From Promethearchaeota archaeon Loki_b32 (GTDB taxonomy: Archaea > Asgardarchaeota > Lokiarchaeia > Sigyniarchaeales > SOKP01), in the NCBI GenBank assembly GCA_005223125.1, contig NJBH01000003.1, positions 62,001 through 126,000 of the forward strand: 64,000 nucleotides of DNA, in the 5' to 3' direction. Positions within the stretch are counted from its first letter, which is position 1. Each line of letters begins with the position of its first letter. The position numbers were made by a program, and so were the translations under genes. Below the pieces are notes generated by a model. It saw nothing but the letters and a program-made list of their open reading frames with translations, made no database searches and had not been told where the DNA came from. Below, one piece after another: positions 37,758-45,103 of this stretch.

Positions 37758-38840
37758 ATGGTCTACCACATAATCACTTTACCTGTTTCAATTCTTTTTA
37801 TTATTTGCGGTGGTGGTTTATTTTGTTATGCGATTAAATTAAGAAAAAAATTTCCTGAATACCATAATTTTCTAAATAGTATTTGTACATTTATCCTTTG
37901 GATAATAGCCGGATTGTTATATCCAGTCTATTTTTCTACTAATAATCCAAATTTCAAATTCTTTCAATCCCTATCTATCTTTTTCATATGTATATTTACA
38001 CCTAGCTTAATAATCCTCATATTATTTTATCAATTACAGTTTGTTGTCAAAAAGGATCCAGAAATTAAGGAAAAAAGGAATATTAAAGTTTTTCTCGAGA
38101 GTTTTGATAAGAAGGACAAAGAATTAAATAGATCAAGATCATATGATTACAAAACTGATTTACACCGGAAGGCTTTACATTTATTTCCAGCGGGAATTAT
38201 TATCCTATTATGGATTTTCTCAGTATATATTTGGGACGGATTATGGAATGCTGATGAAATTTGGGGTATAAGTGGAGAGTATTATGGAAAGTTTTTAATT
38301 TTAACAGCCGGTTATTCAGGTATTTTAATTTTTGGTGCTCTAGATTATGTGAGACTTTCATTCATCTATGAGAATCGCAATCTATTTCATTTAATACCTG
38401 ATAGCGTTTTAAAATTATTAGGAAAAGCAATGAAACGAAGAGAAAATTATGAATTCATTAGGCCTACAGTTTTAGTATTATCATTTGCGACTATTTTTTT
38501 CTTTCCTTTTGGAGTATTTGCTGCTGCGGTCCTAATAGCTACAATTGGTGACGGGGCTGCCTCTGTTATTGGACTTCGATTTGGAAAAAGACATTTTCCA
38601 AAAACATCAGATAAAACCTTACTTGGATATATTGCTGGATTCTTAGCATCTTTTGGAATAAGTATTCTTATGTTGTGGATATTTGAGTCTCACTTGAGCT
38701 TGAATAAAATTATAATTGTTGCTACACTTGGAGCTATTACCTTTTTCATTATTGATATTTTGAATTTAAAGATTGATGATAATATATTAAATCCAATATT
38801 TTGTGCTTTAATTATGGGATTTTTATATTATTTTTTATGA
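37758..38840 (+). CDS. Polyprenol/dolichol kinase-like membrane protein
   Basis: 360 residues with nine or so hydrophobic segments. The catalytic region has the CTP-dependent lipid kinase pattern: RKALHLFPAGIIILLW, ATIGDGAASVIGLRFGKRHF and KTLLGYIAGF, matching dolichol kinase/SEC59 and VTE5-like proteins (D-G-x-A-S and K-T-x-x-G elements). It should phosphorylate an isoprenoid alcohol or related lipid in the membrane. The position after the Tes-like operon, with 190 bp between, fits membrane lipid synthesis. CDP-archaeol synthase is another possibility. Confidence 0.75.
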   Translation: MVYHIITLPVSILFIICGGGLFCYAIKLRKKFPEYHNFLNSICTFILWIIAGLLYPVYFSTNNPNFKFFQSLSIFFICIFTPSLIILILFYQLQFVVKKDPEIKEKRNIKVFLESFDKKDKELNRSRSYDYKTDLHRKALHLFPAGIIILLWIFSVYIWDGLWNADEIWGISGEYYGKFLILTAGYSGILIFGALDYVRLSFIYENRNLFHLIPDSVLKLLGKAMKRRENYEFIRPTVLVLSFATIFFFPFGVFAAAVLIATIGDGAASVIGLRFGKRHFPKTSDKTLLGYIAGFLASFGISILMLWIFESHLSLNKIIIVATLGAITFFIIDILNLKIDDNILNPIFCALIMGFLYYFL

Positions 38841-38909
38841 AATATCAAACTATAAAAATTTAAGTGAGTTCTATTTTGTTCTTCTTAAATAAATATTGGA
38901 GAAAATTAA

Positions 38910-39413
38910 ATGGCTCAATCGGAGGATAGTAAACTGTTTAGCTGTCCAAAATGCGGAACACAGGGTGCTATTATTTTTCTAAAAGCTGAGGGAAATAAAA
39001 TTATTGTAAAACAAAAATGCCCAAAGCATGGAGTGAGAAGTTTTAATATTCCTTTAATGCAAAAAAATCGTTTTATTCCTCATTTTCGTGATGGGGTTTT
39101 TCGGTGTTATCAATGCGGACAAGAAGCTACAGTTATAAGTTCAAAAGCATCAGGTCCTTGGATGTTAATAAAATGTGCTTGTCCAACTCATGGAAACAAA
39201 TTGCCTCTACAAAGAATTTGGAGTACTGTTTACACCGATATTTCTAATAAGGACGCCCCAGCACCACAATCAGTTCAACCACAATCAGTTCAACCACAAT
39301 CAGTTCAACCTCAACCTGCTCCAAGTGACGAAAAGAAGTTTTGTCCTAATTGTGGAACACCACTAAGTGGAACAGATAAACATTGCGACGCTTGTGGCTC
39401 AGAAATAAATTAA
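38910..39413 (+). CDS. Multi-zinc-ribbon protein with proline-glutamine linker
   Basis: 167 residues. Three zinc motifs are visible: CPKCGTQ near residue 12 with CPKHG near 44, CYQCGQE with CPTHGN, and the final CPNCGTP...CDACG. Between the second and third ribbons a linker contains three copies of PQSVQ encoded by an exact 15-bp repeat. Such proteins serve as zinc-ribbon adaptors; the function here is unknown. The ATG at 38910 follows GGAG 6 nt upstream. Confidence 0.7.
   Translation: MAQSEDSKLFSCPKCGTQGAIIFLKAEGNKIIVKQKCPKHGVRSFNIPLMQKNRFIPHFRDGVFRCYQCGQEATVISSKASGPWMLIKCACPTHGNKLPLQRIWSTVYTDISNKDAPAPQSVQPQSVQPQSVQPQPAPSDEKKFCPNCGTPLSGTDKHCDACGSEIN
39264..39308 (+). repeat. Three perfect 15-bp tandem repeats in coding sequence
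   Basis: CCACAATCAGTTCAA occurs three times head to tail, in frame, encoding the PQSVQ linker of the zinc-ribbon protein. The copies are identical, so this is a recent or actively sliding minisatellite. Confidence 0.9.
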
Positions 39414-39451
39414 ATTGAATATTTTTACTTTTTTATTATCTTTTTTTGAAA

Positions 39452-39826
39452 TTAAAAAAATGCATCCATCTTTTTAATTCCCTTTATTTCTTCATAAGTA
39501 ATACCTAGTGGATCTAAGACTTGCTCAAGAGCAGAAATAAGAAGGTCTCTATATTTTTTAATATCTATATCTTGGAGTTTAGCTAGTTCAAGTGCCCTTG
39601 CTCCAATGGATCCCTTACTCTTGATAAAACTTATTGTTTCACCATTTTGGAATTCTTTTCCAGTAGTATTTTTTAATTATAATGCAGCTTTTACATGTTG
39701 AGGAATAACTTTTGTGTAATTTTTAAGAGCCTTCTGTAAGCCAATGTTAATAGCATAATCTTCTAAAGTGAAAGTATTTGGTTTCCCTATCTTCTTTAGA
39801 TTATCTCTTATAAAATAAAATTTAAT
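39452..39826 (-). pseudogene. Decayed C-terminal fragment of a second family-B DNA polymerase
   Basis: On the minus strand one frame reads KKIGKPNTFTLEDYAINIGL, IPQHVKAAL-stop-LKNTTGKEF, SFIKSKGSIGA, IDIKKYRDLLISALEQ and GITYEE, colinear with the end of the polB gene at 42161. One in-frame TAA (39677-39679) replaces a glutamate codon (GAA to TAA). No start codon lies ahead of it, and the polymerase active-site region is missing, so it is a relic. It begins within the last codons of the nuclease gene at 39822. Confidence 0.85.
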
Positions 39827-40832
39827 TTTTTTCAATAAAATCTAATAATGTTGGAGTTCTTTTTAATTCATAAATTTCTTCAATAAATCTTTTCAAATGA
39901 TTAACTAAATTTTTATATTTTATGATATAATTTCCTTGTTCTTCATTGTTAATTGCATAATTTAATTTTACAAACATTTCCATCGCGTCAATTACCCAAC
40001 TTCTTTTTGGAGCTACAAATTGCCTTTCATCATTCGCATGATAGTCCGAGAATTGAGTTCTTAGCCTTTCTGTTAAGTCATCGATATTCACTCGTATCTC
40101 GATTATTTTAATCCCTTTAGATTCCATAAATTCTTCCATTTGTGGATATTGATTAAAAATTCTCGTCCATAAAATTTCCATAGTATATGCAACATTCGGT
40201 TTTACATCATAAAACTTTATTGGATAACGAGGTATTACCTTATTTAATGGAACAAATACAATTGTGCGAAATTTTTCATCTAGATTAACGTCTGTCAAAT
40301 TTCCATATCCTTTTTCTAATGCTAAAGCATAATTGACACCGTAATCTCTATGAAAAGCAATTACAGCAAAATTTTTATTAAAAATCAGCTCCTTTTTCTG
40401 AGATAGATAATCACTTACATGAACTTTCATTCTATAGTGCGTCAAAAGTATGATATCAAAATTATCAATTAATTCATTCTCTGTTTTCCATCCTTTAAGA
40501 TCATCATCATATTTTTGTAATTGTTCAAAATCGTCTTTCCAATGTTCTCTATTTCTGGGAAATGATATTTTTGCTTCACTTAAAATACCATACTCTTCAT
40601 TTAATTGAAGAACCAAATCAGGTATAATTGTATTTTCAGGATTTATACGATTTACCTTTGAGGTATCCATCCTTCGGGCAATAAAACTATACGTATTAGA
40701 TTTGAAATCCATATTCTCATCATCCCATCTTATTACATGAGAAAAACAAATAATTGCTTCTAATGTTTGTTTATAATTATCTATATTCTCTAAGATTTTT
40801 TTAATTCCTCTATTAATTTTGTCTTCTGGCAT
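39822..40832 (-). CDS. PD-(D/E)XK nuclease-like protein
   Basis: 336 residues. The motif PDLVLQL (P71, D72) followed by LSEAKISFP (E86-A-K88) is the PD-x(n)-E-x-K signature of restriction-type nucleases, with a helix (REHWKDDFEQLQKY) that could be the alpha helix after the active site. The other parts have no clear match. It starts a single base after the stop of the 40834 gene, so the pair is tightly coupled. The gene ends against the decayed polB fragment. Role: perhaps defence or mobile-element nuclease, inferred. Confidence 0.65.
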   Translation of the reverse strand: MPEDKINRGIKKILENIDNYKQTLEAIICFSHVIRWDDENMDFKSNTYSFIARRMDTSKVNRINPENTIIPDLVLQLNEEYGILSEAKISFPRNREHWKDDFEQLQKYDDDLKGWKTENELIDNFDIILLTHYRMKVHVSDYLSQKKELIFNKNFAVIAFHRDYGVNYALALEKGYGNLTDVNLDEKFRTIVFVPLNKVIPRYPIKFYDVKPNVAYTMEILWTRIFNQYPQMEEFMESKGIKIIEIRVNIDDLTERLRTQFSDYHANDERQFVAPKRSWVIDAMEMFVKLNYAINNEEQGNYIIKYKNLVNHLKRFIEEIYELKRTPTLLDFIEKN

Positions 40833-40833
40833 T

Positions 40834-41955
40834 TTAAGAATAAAAGTCTTTAATAATTCCTTCTCGAAACCAAATAAATATAAAATTACATAATCTTACT
40901 AATGATGCATAAGTAGATCTCATTTGTGGAACAATTGTTATTTTATTATCAGAAAGAATCCAAATATCATAGGAAGAACCATCTCTAAAATCATTGAAAG
41001 AACAATGTAGATATGGATTTAGGTGATAAATAGAAAGAGATGAATATGTGATTTTTTGGAGTGCTTCAATTAATTTCTTATTTTGTTTTTTATCTTTAAA
41101 AACATCAATATTATATTTAATAACGACTGGTTTAGTTTTCAGATTTTCTTCTTTTGTACGTTCTCTATTGTCTAAGATTTTTATATCCGAAGTTACTTTT
41201 GAAATGATATCTCTGACTATATTATTATAAAAAAATCCAAACATTTTATTGCATCTAAAAAATGCATAACGAGAAATTTTACATTTCACATCACTATATA
41301 TATATTTCTTTCTATCATCTTCAAAAGGTTTAATCAAAGTAAATTCAATATAATTAATCCATTCATCATTTTCTCTAGCTTCTTGAAATAATTCTTCGAA
41401 AGGACGATCTGTAAACTTCACTTCTATCTCAAATTCTCGCCTAGCATATTCTTGGACAATTCTGGCTTGTTTTGATAAATGTCGTACTTGTATTTTGGAG
41501 TTTTCTAGTTTTTTCTCTAAATGATGCAGAATTTTTTCCAAATAATTCGAATCTAAAAAAAATCTAGAGATTTTAGGGTAAAATTTATCAAAAAAACTTA
41601 TTATATCATAATGAAAATTTCTATATTTTTCATGAGTGATAAGAATATAAATATTGGGTGTTTTATGTTTAAAAAGGATAAATCTACTAATTCTTGCTTT
41701 CTTACTACCTCTAATTATTTTTGTTAAATTAAATGAATAAATATTCTCTCCCAATTCCTTCTTTTTATATGTAAAATTTTTTAGATTTAAAGTTTCTAAG
41801 ATCTCAAAAATATCAAATTTTGAAGTCAGTATAAGAGTATAAAATTCTTCTCCTATATTTGATAAAATAGATGTTATAGTCTGAATTATTGAATTAATAT
41901 CTTTCTTTTCAATATCATAAAGCCAAGAAAGTGGATCTTCTCTTTTTTTTAACAT
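40834..41955 (-). CDS. Protein of unknown function, partner of the nuclease
   Basis: 373 residues, high in Lys, Phe and Ile, without transmembrane segments. No domain is recognised. Visible features are a charged helical centre (ILHHLEKKLENSKIQVRHLS) and a C-terminal aromatic stretch (LCNFIFIWFREGIIKDFY). It is located directly after polB (205 bp) on the same strand and immediately before the nuclease gene, with one base between them, so they form a two-gene unit. It could be a DNA-binding or toxin-control partner; that is speculative. Confidence 0.55.
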   Translation of the reverse strand: MLKKREDPLSWLYDIEKKDINSIIQTITSILSNIGEEFYTLILTSKFDIFEILETLNLKNFTYKKKELGENIYSFNLTKIIRGSKKARISRFILFKHKTPNIYILITHEKYRNFHYDIISFFDKFYPKISRFFLDSNYLEKILHHLEKKLENSKIQVRHLSKQARIVQEYARREFEIEVKFTDRPFEELFQEARENDEWINYIEFTLIKPFEDDRKKYIYSDVKCKISRYAFFRCNKMFGFFYNNIVRDIISKVTSDIKILDNRERTKEENLKTKPVVIKYNIDVFKDKKQNKKLIEALQKITYSSLSIYHLNPYLHCSFNDFRDGSSYDIWILSDNKITIVPQMRSTYASLVRLCNFIFIWFREGIIKDFYS

Positions 41956-42160
41956 TATTTACTATCTATAATAATTAGAATCAAAATATAAATTTTAATT
42001 TAAAGTCAATATTTATTATTTTTTTCATATTACTCCAAACTTAAATAAATATCTAGACTATTAGAGTTCTCTCATTTTTTAATGTATATTTGTCTTTACA
42101 CATTCTTATGATATTTAACTTGGATTTATTTAAATCTTTAATGATTATTTAAAAAATGAA

Positions 42161-45103
42161 TTAAAAAAGTGTTTTTTGAACACTTGGTTCTGCTTCTTCT
42201 TTCTTTTTATACTCTTTTAAAGTAATTTCTTCATATTCAATACCTAAAGCATCAAACAACTGCTCTAATGCTGATTTCAATAAATTTCTATATTTTTTAA
42301 CATTTAAATCTCTAAAACTAGCCAGATCAAAATCTTTAGCTCCAATACTGTCATTGCTTTTGATAAATTTAATATCATCACCTTTTTGATATTCCTTCCC
42401 TGTTATTTTTTTTAGTTCGTTAGCAGCTCTGACATGTTGCGGTATTGTTTTCTCATAAGATTTAAGAGATTTTTGTAATGTTATATAAATTGCATAGTCT
42501 TCTAAAGGAAATTCATCTTCCTTACCTATTTTTTTTCTATTAGCCTTTATAATTTCGATTATAGATTTTCGGGCTTTTAAAAAATCATCATCTGATTTTA
42601 CATTTTTTAATATATCAATTACTTGTCGAAATACTTTCTTAATAAATTCAGGTGTATTTTTTTTTTTAGCTAAGACTCCTTTCATATCAATGTATTTAGT
42701 ATTTTTATAGATACCAACATAATTTTTCTTTCTTTTAGATAATGCTAGAAATTGATAAGTTTTTTCCTCCTCCAAATCAAGATCTAGTTCATTTTTACTC
42801 CATTCAGATAATTGTCTCATTTGATCTTTTGTTGGATTTCTAAGAAAGACAGAATCTGTATCACCATATAATACTTCTATTCCTAATTCTTCTGATTTTT
42901 TAATTGTCTGTTTAATGGAATATTGTCCTATTGAAGTTGTACTTTCAGCCACCGGAAGGCAAAAAAGAGGAAAATTCTTAGATCCAAAAACACCATATGA
43001 ACCATTAATAAAAACTTTAAGAGCTTGTTGAATCGTTTGATAATAACTTCTTTGTTTTTCTGTTAAATTTTTATCACCAGATTTAGGTTTAAAATATTTT
43101 ACTCTTATATCTCGGAAAAAGCCTACGACATATGCAAAGATTCCCATTTTTTGAGTACATATATAGTAGGGGGTTCCTTTTACAAGATTATCTTCATCAT
43201 CCTTATGTGGACACAAAACTGTTTCATATGATAAATTATATTCCTTGATAATGGAAGGATATAGGCTAGCAAAATCCATAACAACGACATCGAAATGAAT
43301 ACCAGGAACAGGTGGAACAACATATGCCCCAGCAAATGTTTTTCCTTCGATAACAGCTTTTGAATATCCTCCTGTTTTTAATTCTGCAATTTCAGATCTA
43401 CGAGGTATAAGATATTTGTTTCTCCTGTGTTCAAAATAAAAAATATTCTGAATCCATGTAGATATTTGGCGCCTTACAGTTTCATGAATAGGCATTTTAG
43501 TAATTCGGCATAATAATAAAATTAAATTCCATACTAATGAATTATTAAATTTAGTTAATTCTAATGTAAGTATTGAATCTTTTAGATTATACCATGTAAG
43601 TATATCATATTCCATTTCGTGTATTTCTTCTTCATGTTCATATTTTTTTTCTCCCAATAGCGCTTCACTTATTGCGTTTAATGAACTGCTTTCATATGCT
43701 CCACCAAATGCATATCCAGAAATACTTCTATTAAAGAAGAAATTAAAGAGATCAATATGGATTCCTTTTCTTAGATCACAGTCAGATCTTGATAGAAAAC
43801 CAAAGCCTCTCTTAACATGGATGGGATTTAAATCTTTATTTATTTTTAACTTATTTGCTCTATGAAACATATAATTTAAGTCAAAATTATCACCATTGAA
43901 TGTGATAATTACAGGATATTCCCATAAAAGACGAAAGGATTCTGTCAATAATTCCTTTTCGCTTTTAAAGAATATAACTTCTGCATCAGATGGAAATTTT
44001 TTATGAAGTCCACGAAAAGCAAATCCTTCTCGTTCTAGTACATAAACTAATTTTAGTCCATCCGAAGCCACAAATGATATACTGATAATTGCTTGTTTTG
44101 CCTGACGAGGATCTGGAATAACAAAATCTTCTGATCCTATACTTACTTCGATATCCATAGCTAACCGTTTCACATCTGGAATCGGAGTGAGAAATATATC
44201 TAAAAACTTTTCCGAAAATTCTTGGATTTCTGGAGATTCATTTTTAAATAGAGCGCGCAATTCTTTTGCCATTCTCTTTGATTCTTCTGAAACCTCTTCA
44301 AAACTTAACTTTTTGATTTGACCACCCTGAATACTATAAATTAATCCAGGAATTAGTTGTCTATCGAAAATATAGTTTAAGTGATATCTAATGTCTGCTT
44401 CCCAAGCTTTTTTATTATTTTTACTTAAAATATTTCTGATATTTGTACCAGAACCTCCAATATCCGAAGGAGTTTTACCATATATTTTTGTCATCGATAT
44501 TTTTTTATCTTTTAGTAGATCTATTTTCTCTATTTCTTCAAATCTAGTAAAACCTTCATATTCTGTTAATTCTATCATATTTTGTAAATCTGTTAGCGTT
44601 TCCTTACTTAAACAATAAGGTTCATGGTCGGTTGTATCAATCCAAATCTTTATATCATCGGTTTCCAAATCATAAAATTTACAGTATGCTTTATTTTGTC
44701 CACCATCATAGTTAACATCAAGCAATATTCCTCGTTCCATATCTTCAACGATTTCTCCTTTTTCAATAAGGTATCGAATATATGTTGAAGAAACATTTTC
44801 TCGTAAAACCTTGGTTAATCTGATATTTCCTTCTTTTAAGCCAAAAAGTTCATTATTTCCTTTAAAAAATAAATTTGAAGGTATTTCTTTTGTAATTTTC
44901 TCTGCTTTTGGAGTTGGTTCTTTAGTTTTCTCTTCTTTTATAATTTTTGGCTTAGCTTTAGGTTTTTCTTCTTTATATTTTTCAGTCTTTACTACTTTTG
45001 GTGTTTCTGGGGATTTTACTTTTTTCTGCTCTTTATCGCTAACAAAGGAAAAAAGCGAGGTTTGTTCCTTATCATTTAGTTTTTTCTTTTTTGGAGGTGG
45101 CAT
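42161..45103 (-). CDS. polB: Family-B DNA polymerase
   Basis: 980 residues. Exonuclease motifs are DIEVSIG (ExoI), ITFNGDNFDLNYM (ExoII) and YNLKDS (ExoIII). Polymerase motifs are DFASLYPSI (A), KVFINGSYGVFG (B) and YGDTDSVF (C), with SKRKKNYVG nearby. All catalytic acids are present, so it is an active, proofreading replicative-type enzyme. The first ~75 residues are a basic, low-complexity tail starting with QTSLFSF (Q14-F20), and the last five are QKTLF; both resemble PCNA-interacting PIP boxes. No intein is present; the length is explained by the tail. Confidence 0.95.
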   Translation of the reverse strand: MPPPKKKKLNDKEQTSLFSFVSDKEQKKVKSPETPKVVKTEKYKEEKPKAKPKIIKEEKTKEPTPKAEKITKEIPSNLFFKGNNELFGLKEGNIRLTKVLRENVSSTYIRYLIEKGEIVEDMERGILLDVNYDGGQNKAYCKFYDLETDDIKIWIDTTDHEPYCLSKETLTDLQNMIELTEYEGFTRFEEIEKIDLLKDKKISMTKIYGKTPSDIGGSGTNIRNILSKNNKKAWEADIRYHLNYIFDRQLIPGLIYSIQGGQIKKLSFEEVSEESKRMAKELRALFKNESPEIQEFSEKFLDIFLTPIPDVKRLAMDIEVSIGSEDFVIPDPRQAKQAIISISFVASDGLKLVYVLEREGFAFRGLHKKFPSDAEVIFFKSEKELLTESFRLLWEYPVIITFNGDNFDLNYMFHRANKLKINKDLNPIHVKRGFGFLSRSDCDLRKGIHIDLFNFFFNRSISGYAFGGAYESSSLNAISEALLGEKKYEHEEEIHEMEYDILTWYNLKDSILTLELTKFNNSLVWNLILLLCRITKMPIHETVRRQISTWIQNIFYFEHRRNKYLIPRRSEIAELKTGGYSKAVIEGKTFAGAYVVPPVPGIHFDVVVMDFASLYPSIIKEYNLSYETVLCPHKDDEDNLVKGTPYYICTQKMGIFAYVVGFFRDIRVKYFKPKSGDKNLTEKQRSYYQTIQQALKVFINGSYGVFGSKNFPLFCLPVAESTTSIGQYSIKQTIKKSEELGIEVLYGDTDSVFLRNPTKDQMRQLSEWSKNELDLDLEEEKTYQFLALSKRKKNYVGIYKNTKYIDMKGVLAKKKNTPEFIKKVFRQVIDILKNVKSDDDFLKARKSIIEIIKANRKKIGKEDEFPLEDYAIYITLQKSLKSYEKTIPQHVRAANELKKITGKEYQKGDDIKFIKSNDSIGAKDFDLASFRDLNVKKYRNLLKSALEQLFDALGIEYEEITLKEYKKKEEAEPSVQKTLF

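Follow-up and report, generated by a model that had tools for sequence, protein, structure and literature searches.

WHO elements were described at the FBA1 gene of Torulaspora and Lachancea yeasts (Coughlan et al. 2020, PMC7282813). Their layout comprises a host gene with replaced 3' end, an independently transcribed nuclease gene downstream and the displaced 3' fragment of the host gene, with conflicting trees for the 5' and 3' parts (PMC7282813). The window, the whole stretch of 64,000 nucleotides of Loki_b32 (G000) analysed here, contains a disturbed polB locus, which was compared with genomes of the same genus (e.g. G001, G002, G011, G014) and of the wider family, the latter including Candidatus Lokiarchaeota G026 (contig JAUWRB010000076.1). 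The G000 assembly consists of 71 contigs with an estimated contamination of 4.6%; the locus is internal to a contig of 228 kb. It has the following features:

37758..38840, plus strand: membrane gene of the native flank (labelled DGK), convergent with polB in most relatives
38910..39413, plus strand: zinc-ribbon gene, native downstream flank, adjoining polB in G001
39454..39813, minus strand: relic, the displaced native 3' end of polB, ending with GIKKMDAFF and stop; in-frame TAA at 39677-39679
39822..40832, minus strand: gene A, 336 aa, predicted PD-(D/E)XK nuclease-like fold and C-terminal winged helix
40834..41955, minus strand: gene B, 373 aa, predicted RdgC/Iml3(CENP-L)-like fold
42161..45103, minus strand: whole polB, with A and B downstream
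42161..42703, minus strand: polB aa 801-980, C-terminal part of foreign ('type-2') origin, tail ..QKTLF (by nt identity and AU test)
42704..42913, minus strand: polB nt 2191-2400, mosaic recombination zone with the YGDTDS motif (by diagnostic sites)
42914..45103, minus strand: polB aa 1-730, native part of the chimera (by aa identity and tree)

As stated in the original prediction, A and B are one base apart and lie downstream of polB. The gap between polB and B is 205 bp. The polB relic stands directly behind them, its homology beginning 9 nt past the stop codon of A. Compared with aa 852-960 of the window PolB, the relic shows 62% aa and 67% nt identity (E=1e-25); a single TAA interrupts its frame. 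G001 has the gene order polB, zinc-ribbon gene, DGK without the insertion and is otherwise colinear with the window; 3' of the relic the sequence again tracks G001 through the zinc-ribbon gene and the DGK-like gene (85-89% nt identity). No integrase was detected within the insertion, and neither an identical att core nor a HEG remnant was found in the window. The zinc-ribbon protein (38910-39413) carries a threefold tandem repeat of QSVQP; its gene is found in G000, G001 and G012 between polB and DGK, and G004 has it close to polB. Family-wide, the stretch that separates polB from the convergent DGK-like gene (38841-42160 in the window; loci L036-L068) is a hotspot of variable cargo of 0.05 to 6.8 kb, mostly without any replacement of the polB tail.

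The intact polB is a chimera and its native tail was displaced; we regard this as practically certain, and the predicted tie between the module and a disturbed polB is borne out. The window PolB shares 96% aa identity with G001 and G002 from aa 130 to 730. For aa 852-961 the identity is 61-62% to G001 and G002 and 89% to G011, the N-part of the latter being only 78% identical to the window PolB. At the DNA level, native sequence extends to about nt 2190 and type-2 sequence follows after about nt 2400, the part between being mixed. Within the mosaic zone the diagnostic sites shift from native to type-2, with about 80% nt identity to both groups, and the C-part (42161..42703) shows 84-92% nt identity to G011 and 59-73% to G001. 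The relic is 85% identical (aa and nt) to the C-terminus of the G001 PolB, the same value as the mean C-part identity of native pairs with 90-95% identity in the N-part. In trees of the N-part, G000 stands beside G002 and G001. In trees of the C-part, the intact G000 tail groups with G011 (support 100), with G014 and G017 as a sister pair, and the relic groups with G002 and G001. AU tests rejected the grouping of the C-part with G001 and G002 (dlnL 132), of the N-part with the type-2 genomes (p 4e-4) and of the relic with the intact tail (p-AU 1.5e-4). As judged from these alignments, a single history for both polB ends is rejected by trees and AU tests.

Since the relic is the native tail and the intact C-terminal third is foreign, the insertion consists of the foreign polB tail, gene B and gene A, and abuts the displaced native tail. 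Native codons from about 731 to 850 are absent from the relic, and no homology is visible at the right junction. The differences of the relic still follow the codon positions (0.11/0.07/0.28), hence the displacement is recent. A donor with a type-2 tail linked to B-A was not found; the contig of G011 stops at the polB stop codon. At a contig end of G001 (G001:C405, L055) there is another C-terminal fragment of polB, with DGK-like and radical-SAM neighbours of its own; it is probably contamination by a related species.

Related genomes were examined regarding the same site. In G014, a second species of the genus, a type-2 chimeric polB is followed by an ORF of 685 aa on the opposite strand and then by a native-type PolB tail. 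The ORF has intein-splicing and LAGLIDADG matches, and two Cys-x2-Cys motifs lie in its N-terminal part. It is unrelated to B-A, and the layout is that of the window. The displaced tail of G014 is 73% identical to the G000 relic and 85-88% to G006, G007 and G018. G017 has a type-2 polB and a HEG with 66% identity to that of G014, and in G044 (another family) a 42% identical HEG lies directly behind polB. This polB (L124, G044:C119) holds both halves of a homologous mini-intein without endonuclease domain; the frame of the Hint-LAGLIDADG ORF behind it has 1021 codons, which makes a split intein/HEG arrangement. A full-length relative is present at the pol-b site of the G056 PolB, and a HEG remnant of 37 aa lies about 10 nt behind polB in G030. 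Thus, HEGs derived from PolB inteins are repeatedly resident behind polB (G014, G017, G044, G030). Of the type-2 loci, the three whose downstream sequence is visible all have a nuclease-type gene directly behind polB; at the 26 native loci no intact one was found. The change at the pol-b site (INASYG in G011, G014 and G017, INGSYG in most natives) was considered as a mark of resistance; this is not decisive, because the Ala also occurs in native G015, G010, G026 and G027. Further PolB inteins of congeners are located at pol-c, between YGD and TDS, in G013 (L048) and G006 (L049), and at pol-a (DFA/SLYPS) in G007 (L050) and G009 (L051; cut by a masked stretch).

We lean towards the view that the locus as a whole is a WHO-type insertion which replaced the 3' end of polB. 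That a nuclease drove this insertion in the WHO manner is probable. The nuclease would have cleaved the 3' region of native polB close to codon 850, the point at which the relic starts. Repair would then have copied the donor polB tail and B-A from a related species and would have reached into the conserved palm region further upstream (codons about 730-800). The recipient's own polB end would persist as a fragment in decay; with the foreign tail, the polymerase would stay functional and the cut site would be gone. The same site carries an intein-derived LAGLIDADG endonuclease in the sister species and B-A in G000, with A as the predicted PD-(D/E)XK nuclease with winged helix and B as its predicted RdgC-like DNA-binding partner.

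The structure model of A (pLDDT 83) gave the small subunit of R.BspD6I as best Foldseek match (prob 0.94, E=0.007), and also BstEII and SduA. A carries the predicted residues P71-D72 and E86-A-K88 (PD-x13-ExK), with predicted strands E73-76 and E81-88. The PD..(D/E)xK signature on a core beta-sheet, by which the PD-(D/E)XK superfamily is recognized, is present in A, with a best Foldseek E of only 0.007. The motif sits inside the predicted PD-(D/E)XK fold and is therefore more than a chance motif, in agreement with the original prediction. A is predicted from this model to be a PD-(D/E)XK nuclease-like protein with a winged helix. For B (pLDDT 89) Foldseek matched RdgC (prob 0.97-1.00) and Iml3 (prob 0.99), with low TM-scores of about 0.25-0.31; RnlA was resembled more weakly than RdgC and Iml3/CENP-L. 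The fold similarity of RdgC and Iml3/Chl4 has already been published (PMC4080450). B shows the conserved motif HxNPYxH..D..DG..D. Its resemblance to RdgC is one of fold only, with no match among PDB sequences or in Pfam. The model predicts B to be an RdgC/CENP-L-like protein of the recombination-associated DNA-binding class.

Neither protein gave a meaningful match to Pfam, NCBIfam, PHROGs, PADLOC or PDB sequences, and PADLOC profiles gave weak single-member matches only (BrxF 0.0013, NsnC 0.0042, PDC-M24B 1.7e-4). The profile and structure searches proposed earlier placed the pair in no known housekeeping family and in no listed defence family; for A they gave a nuclease fold. Many C-termini of A relatives, judged visually, resemble sliding-clamp motifs (QDTLF, QGSLF, QSSLEEYF, QTSLVQF); the tail of the window A, TPTLLDFIEKN, shows a weaker resemblance. 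By this likeness, the A tails of relatives are possible sliding-clamp binders.

Sequence searches of genome and viral collections with A alone gave no match. Relatives of B-A were found via haloarchaeal plasmids and then in genomes. A search in other archaea had been recommended, and the pair is indeed present in Lokiarchaeota, another Asgard family (G178), Nanoarchaeota, Halobacteria and a Thermoplasmatales MAG, and also in Actinobacteria and one Planctomycetota MAG. B always precedes A, and the two overlap or are spaced by no more than a few tens of nt. B-A is a real, undescribed operon of archaea and actinobacteria.

In the Nanoarchaeota locus L077 the gene upstream of B has its tail repeated (35/37 nt), starting 9 nt past the A stop codon, as the relic does in the window. 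This upstream gene resembles by eye an exonuclease-like ORF of G446. A third copy of its tail was found elsewhere in this Nanoarchaeota genome, at 1504-1623 of L135 (G228:C238), just upstream of the type I restriction gene hsdM, which suggests a gene-end integration hotspot; the L077 case could thus reflect another integration system. In G142 a stretch of 7.7 kb with B-A lies between duplications (251 nt, 99.6% identical) of the 5' end of a glycerol-kinase-like (glpK-like) gene, and the empty site of this insertion is present in G027, G033 and G000. B-A of Halorussus (L079) is flanked by a 47-nt identical tRNA-Gly repeat and that of Dactylosporangium (L102) by tRNA-Ser repeats; other copies are located on plasmids. 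The polB, exonuclease-like, glpK-like and tRNA cases together show that B-A uses more than one route and travels on insertions which duplicate gene ends. A search for duplications upstream and downstream of B-A in the haloarchaeal and actinobacterial loci brought up tRNA repeats only and no protein-gene ends. Most copies are without a duplicated protein-gene end, thus B-A is not an obligate tail-swapper, and the idea of a general tail-swapper was rejected for these haloarchaeal and actinobacterial loci. Two further candidates were set aside: the flanking repeat of L092 is a dispersed repeat, and B of L082 lies behind thrS, only 229 nt downstream and without displaced tail.

The strongest alternative takes B-A as a hitchhiking anti-mobile-element defence cassette with no role in moving the polB tail. 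We give it just short of an even chance, together with its proposed route, in which the foreign tail and B-A came in via homology in the conserved polB core or via a since-lost homing endonuclease. The copies on plasmids and in elements integrated at tRNA-Gly and tRNA-Ser speak for it, as does the true homing-type gene of the sister loci. The active site of A, whose conservation was to be checked, is kept in only some of the copies: among the scanned archaeal copies PD..ExK is intact in 9 and lost in 10. A predicted membrane-protein gene adjoins all ten copies with lost motif and none of the nine intact ones; it lies downstream of A in L083, L085, L087-L090 and L073 and upstream of B in L071, L079 and L081. 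The copies with this pattern fall into about two clades and hence represent few independent events. Actinobacterial copies of A kept the E and lost the K, without an adjacent membrane-protein gene. The archaeal pattern resembles the effector replacement of immune systems and suggests a defence-type effector. Methyltransferases, integrases, tRNA att repeats and a RAMP-like gene occur near some B-A copies, none of them as a constant partner among the copies scanned. In G178 a Cas7/RAMP-like gene, named by eye, directly follows B-A (G178:C3, L142, 9938-10759), which fits a defence cassette as well. Against a mere passenger stand the missing HEG remnant in the window, the A stop codon exactly at the junction in both the window and L077, and the lack of a convincing PADLOC family match. 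Of the predicted new defence or mobile unit, the mobile part was right; the defence link is suggestive only, given by mobile-element neighbourhoods and the effector-swap pattern.

For the role of B-A, the chances seem evenly balanced that it is a defence-like passenger of a tail swap driven otherwise. That B-A itself was the driver is somewhat doubtful. Only tentatively can B-A be seen as a new two-component homing element, in which a PD-(D/E)XK protein and an RdgC-like partner, possibly aided by sliding-clamp-binding tails, would cut essential genes and spread through the replacement of one of their ends. With the same reserve, the displaced gene end would then stay behind the right edge of B-A.

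A site-specific insertion of the integrase type at the polB 3' end, with restoration of the gene and an integrase lost or acting in trans, is unlikely. Gene-end duplication is a hallmark of such insertions, and B-A occurs elsewhere in tRNA-integrated elements. However, a shared att core predicts the same start codon for tail and relic, whereas the foreign sequence is reached by codon 800 or earlier and the relic starts at 852. Furthermore, the insertion contains no integrase gene, and tail and relic are only 67% identical.

An assembly artefact fusing two species is very improbable. The number of contigs and the estimated contamination would allow it, but the locus has native genes on both sides inside its large contig. 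On the left, native sequence passes gradually into type-2 sequence, and no long stretch there is identical in both parents. No sequence is shared at the right joint, and G014 independently shows the same layout. Least credible is the decay of a duplicated, paralogous second polB whose front was replaced by the module, as originally predicted: a C-terminal polB fragment is present downstream, but by the AU tests it groups with the polB of the closest relatives and the intact gene is the chimera, and in none of the relatives does the site hold another full-length copy of this polB.

If the reading as a WHO-type insertion is true, the locus would be the first prokaryotic WHO-type element known to us, acting on a replicative DNA polymerase in a host from the archaea closest to eukaryotes. 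It would also give a concrete route by which an essential polymerase gains a foreign thumb and C-terminus. Phylogenies of Asgard PolB can mix two histories. Separately from this, B-A is an undescribed operon of a candidate nuclease and an RdgC/CENP-L-like partner. To our knowledge, no earlier case of a WHO-type element in prokaryotes has been reported, and among the open-access papers searched only the yeast paper describes WHO elements.

Compared with known proteins, A resembles the R.BspD6I small subunit, BstEII and Shedu SduA in its predicted fold and PD..ExK motif. It differs from these nucleases by the absence of Pfam, NCBIfam and PADLOC matches, by its own winged helix and by the clamp-binding-like tail of its relatives. 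The model of B resembles the fold of RdgC and Iml3-Chl4 (CENP-L/N), but B is without detected sequence similarity to these, the TM-scores are as low as given above, and it is paired with a predicted nuclease. The HEGs of G014, G017 and G044 are homologous to the pol-b-site intein of G044 and G056 among the PolB inteins (pol-a, pol-b, pol-c). Unlike these inteins, they are free-standing behind polB and out of its reading frame; B-A of the window is unrelated to inteins. We know of no displaced gene end as a typical part of phage intronless-homing systems. Free-standing homing endonucleases with co-conversion (T4 Seg/Mob) are similar to the window in that the nuclease lies beside and not inside the converted gene (PMC2988022).

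The window differs from the yeast WHO elements in its archaeal host and in the gene concerned, a family-B DNA polymerase. Its module is a predicted nuclease of PD-(D/E)XK type with an RdgC-like protein, not LAGLIDADG; LAGLIDADG genes of the intein/HO family were found only in G014, G017 and G044, not in A or B. In addition, native codons 731-850 were lost. In common with WHO, the host gene is chimeric with native 5' and foreign 3' part, the recipient's own 3' end is displaced behind a nuclease-type gene, and the predicted nuclease gene A, with intact motif, lies between host gene and fragment; the trees of the 5' and 3' parts of the host gene disagree in both. The nuclease of the sister loci is, as in WHO, intein-derived, with a zinc-ribbon-like Cys-x2-Cys pair in G014. 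While not classed as a WHO member, the window locus looks like a WHO element in its working.
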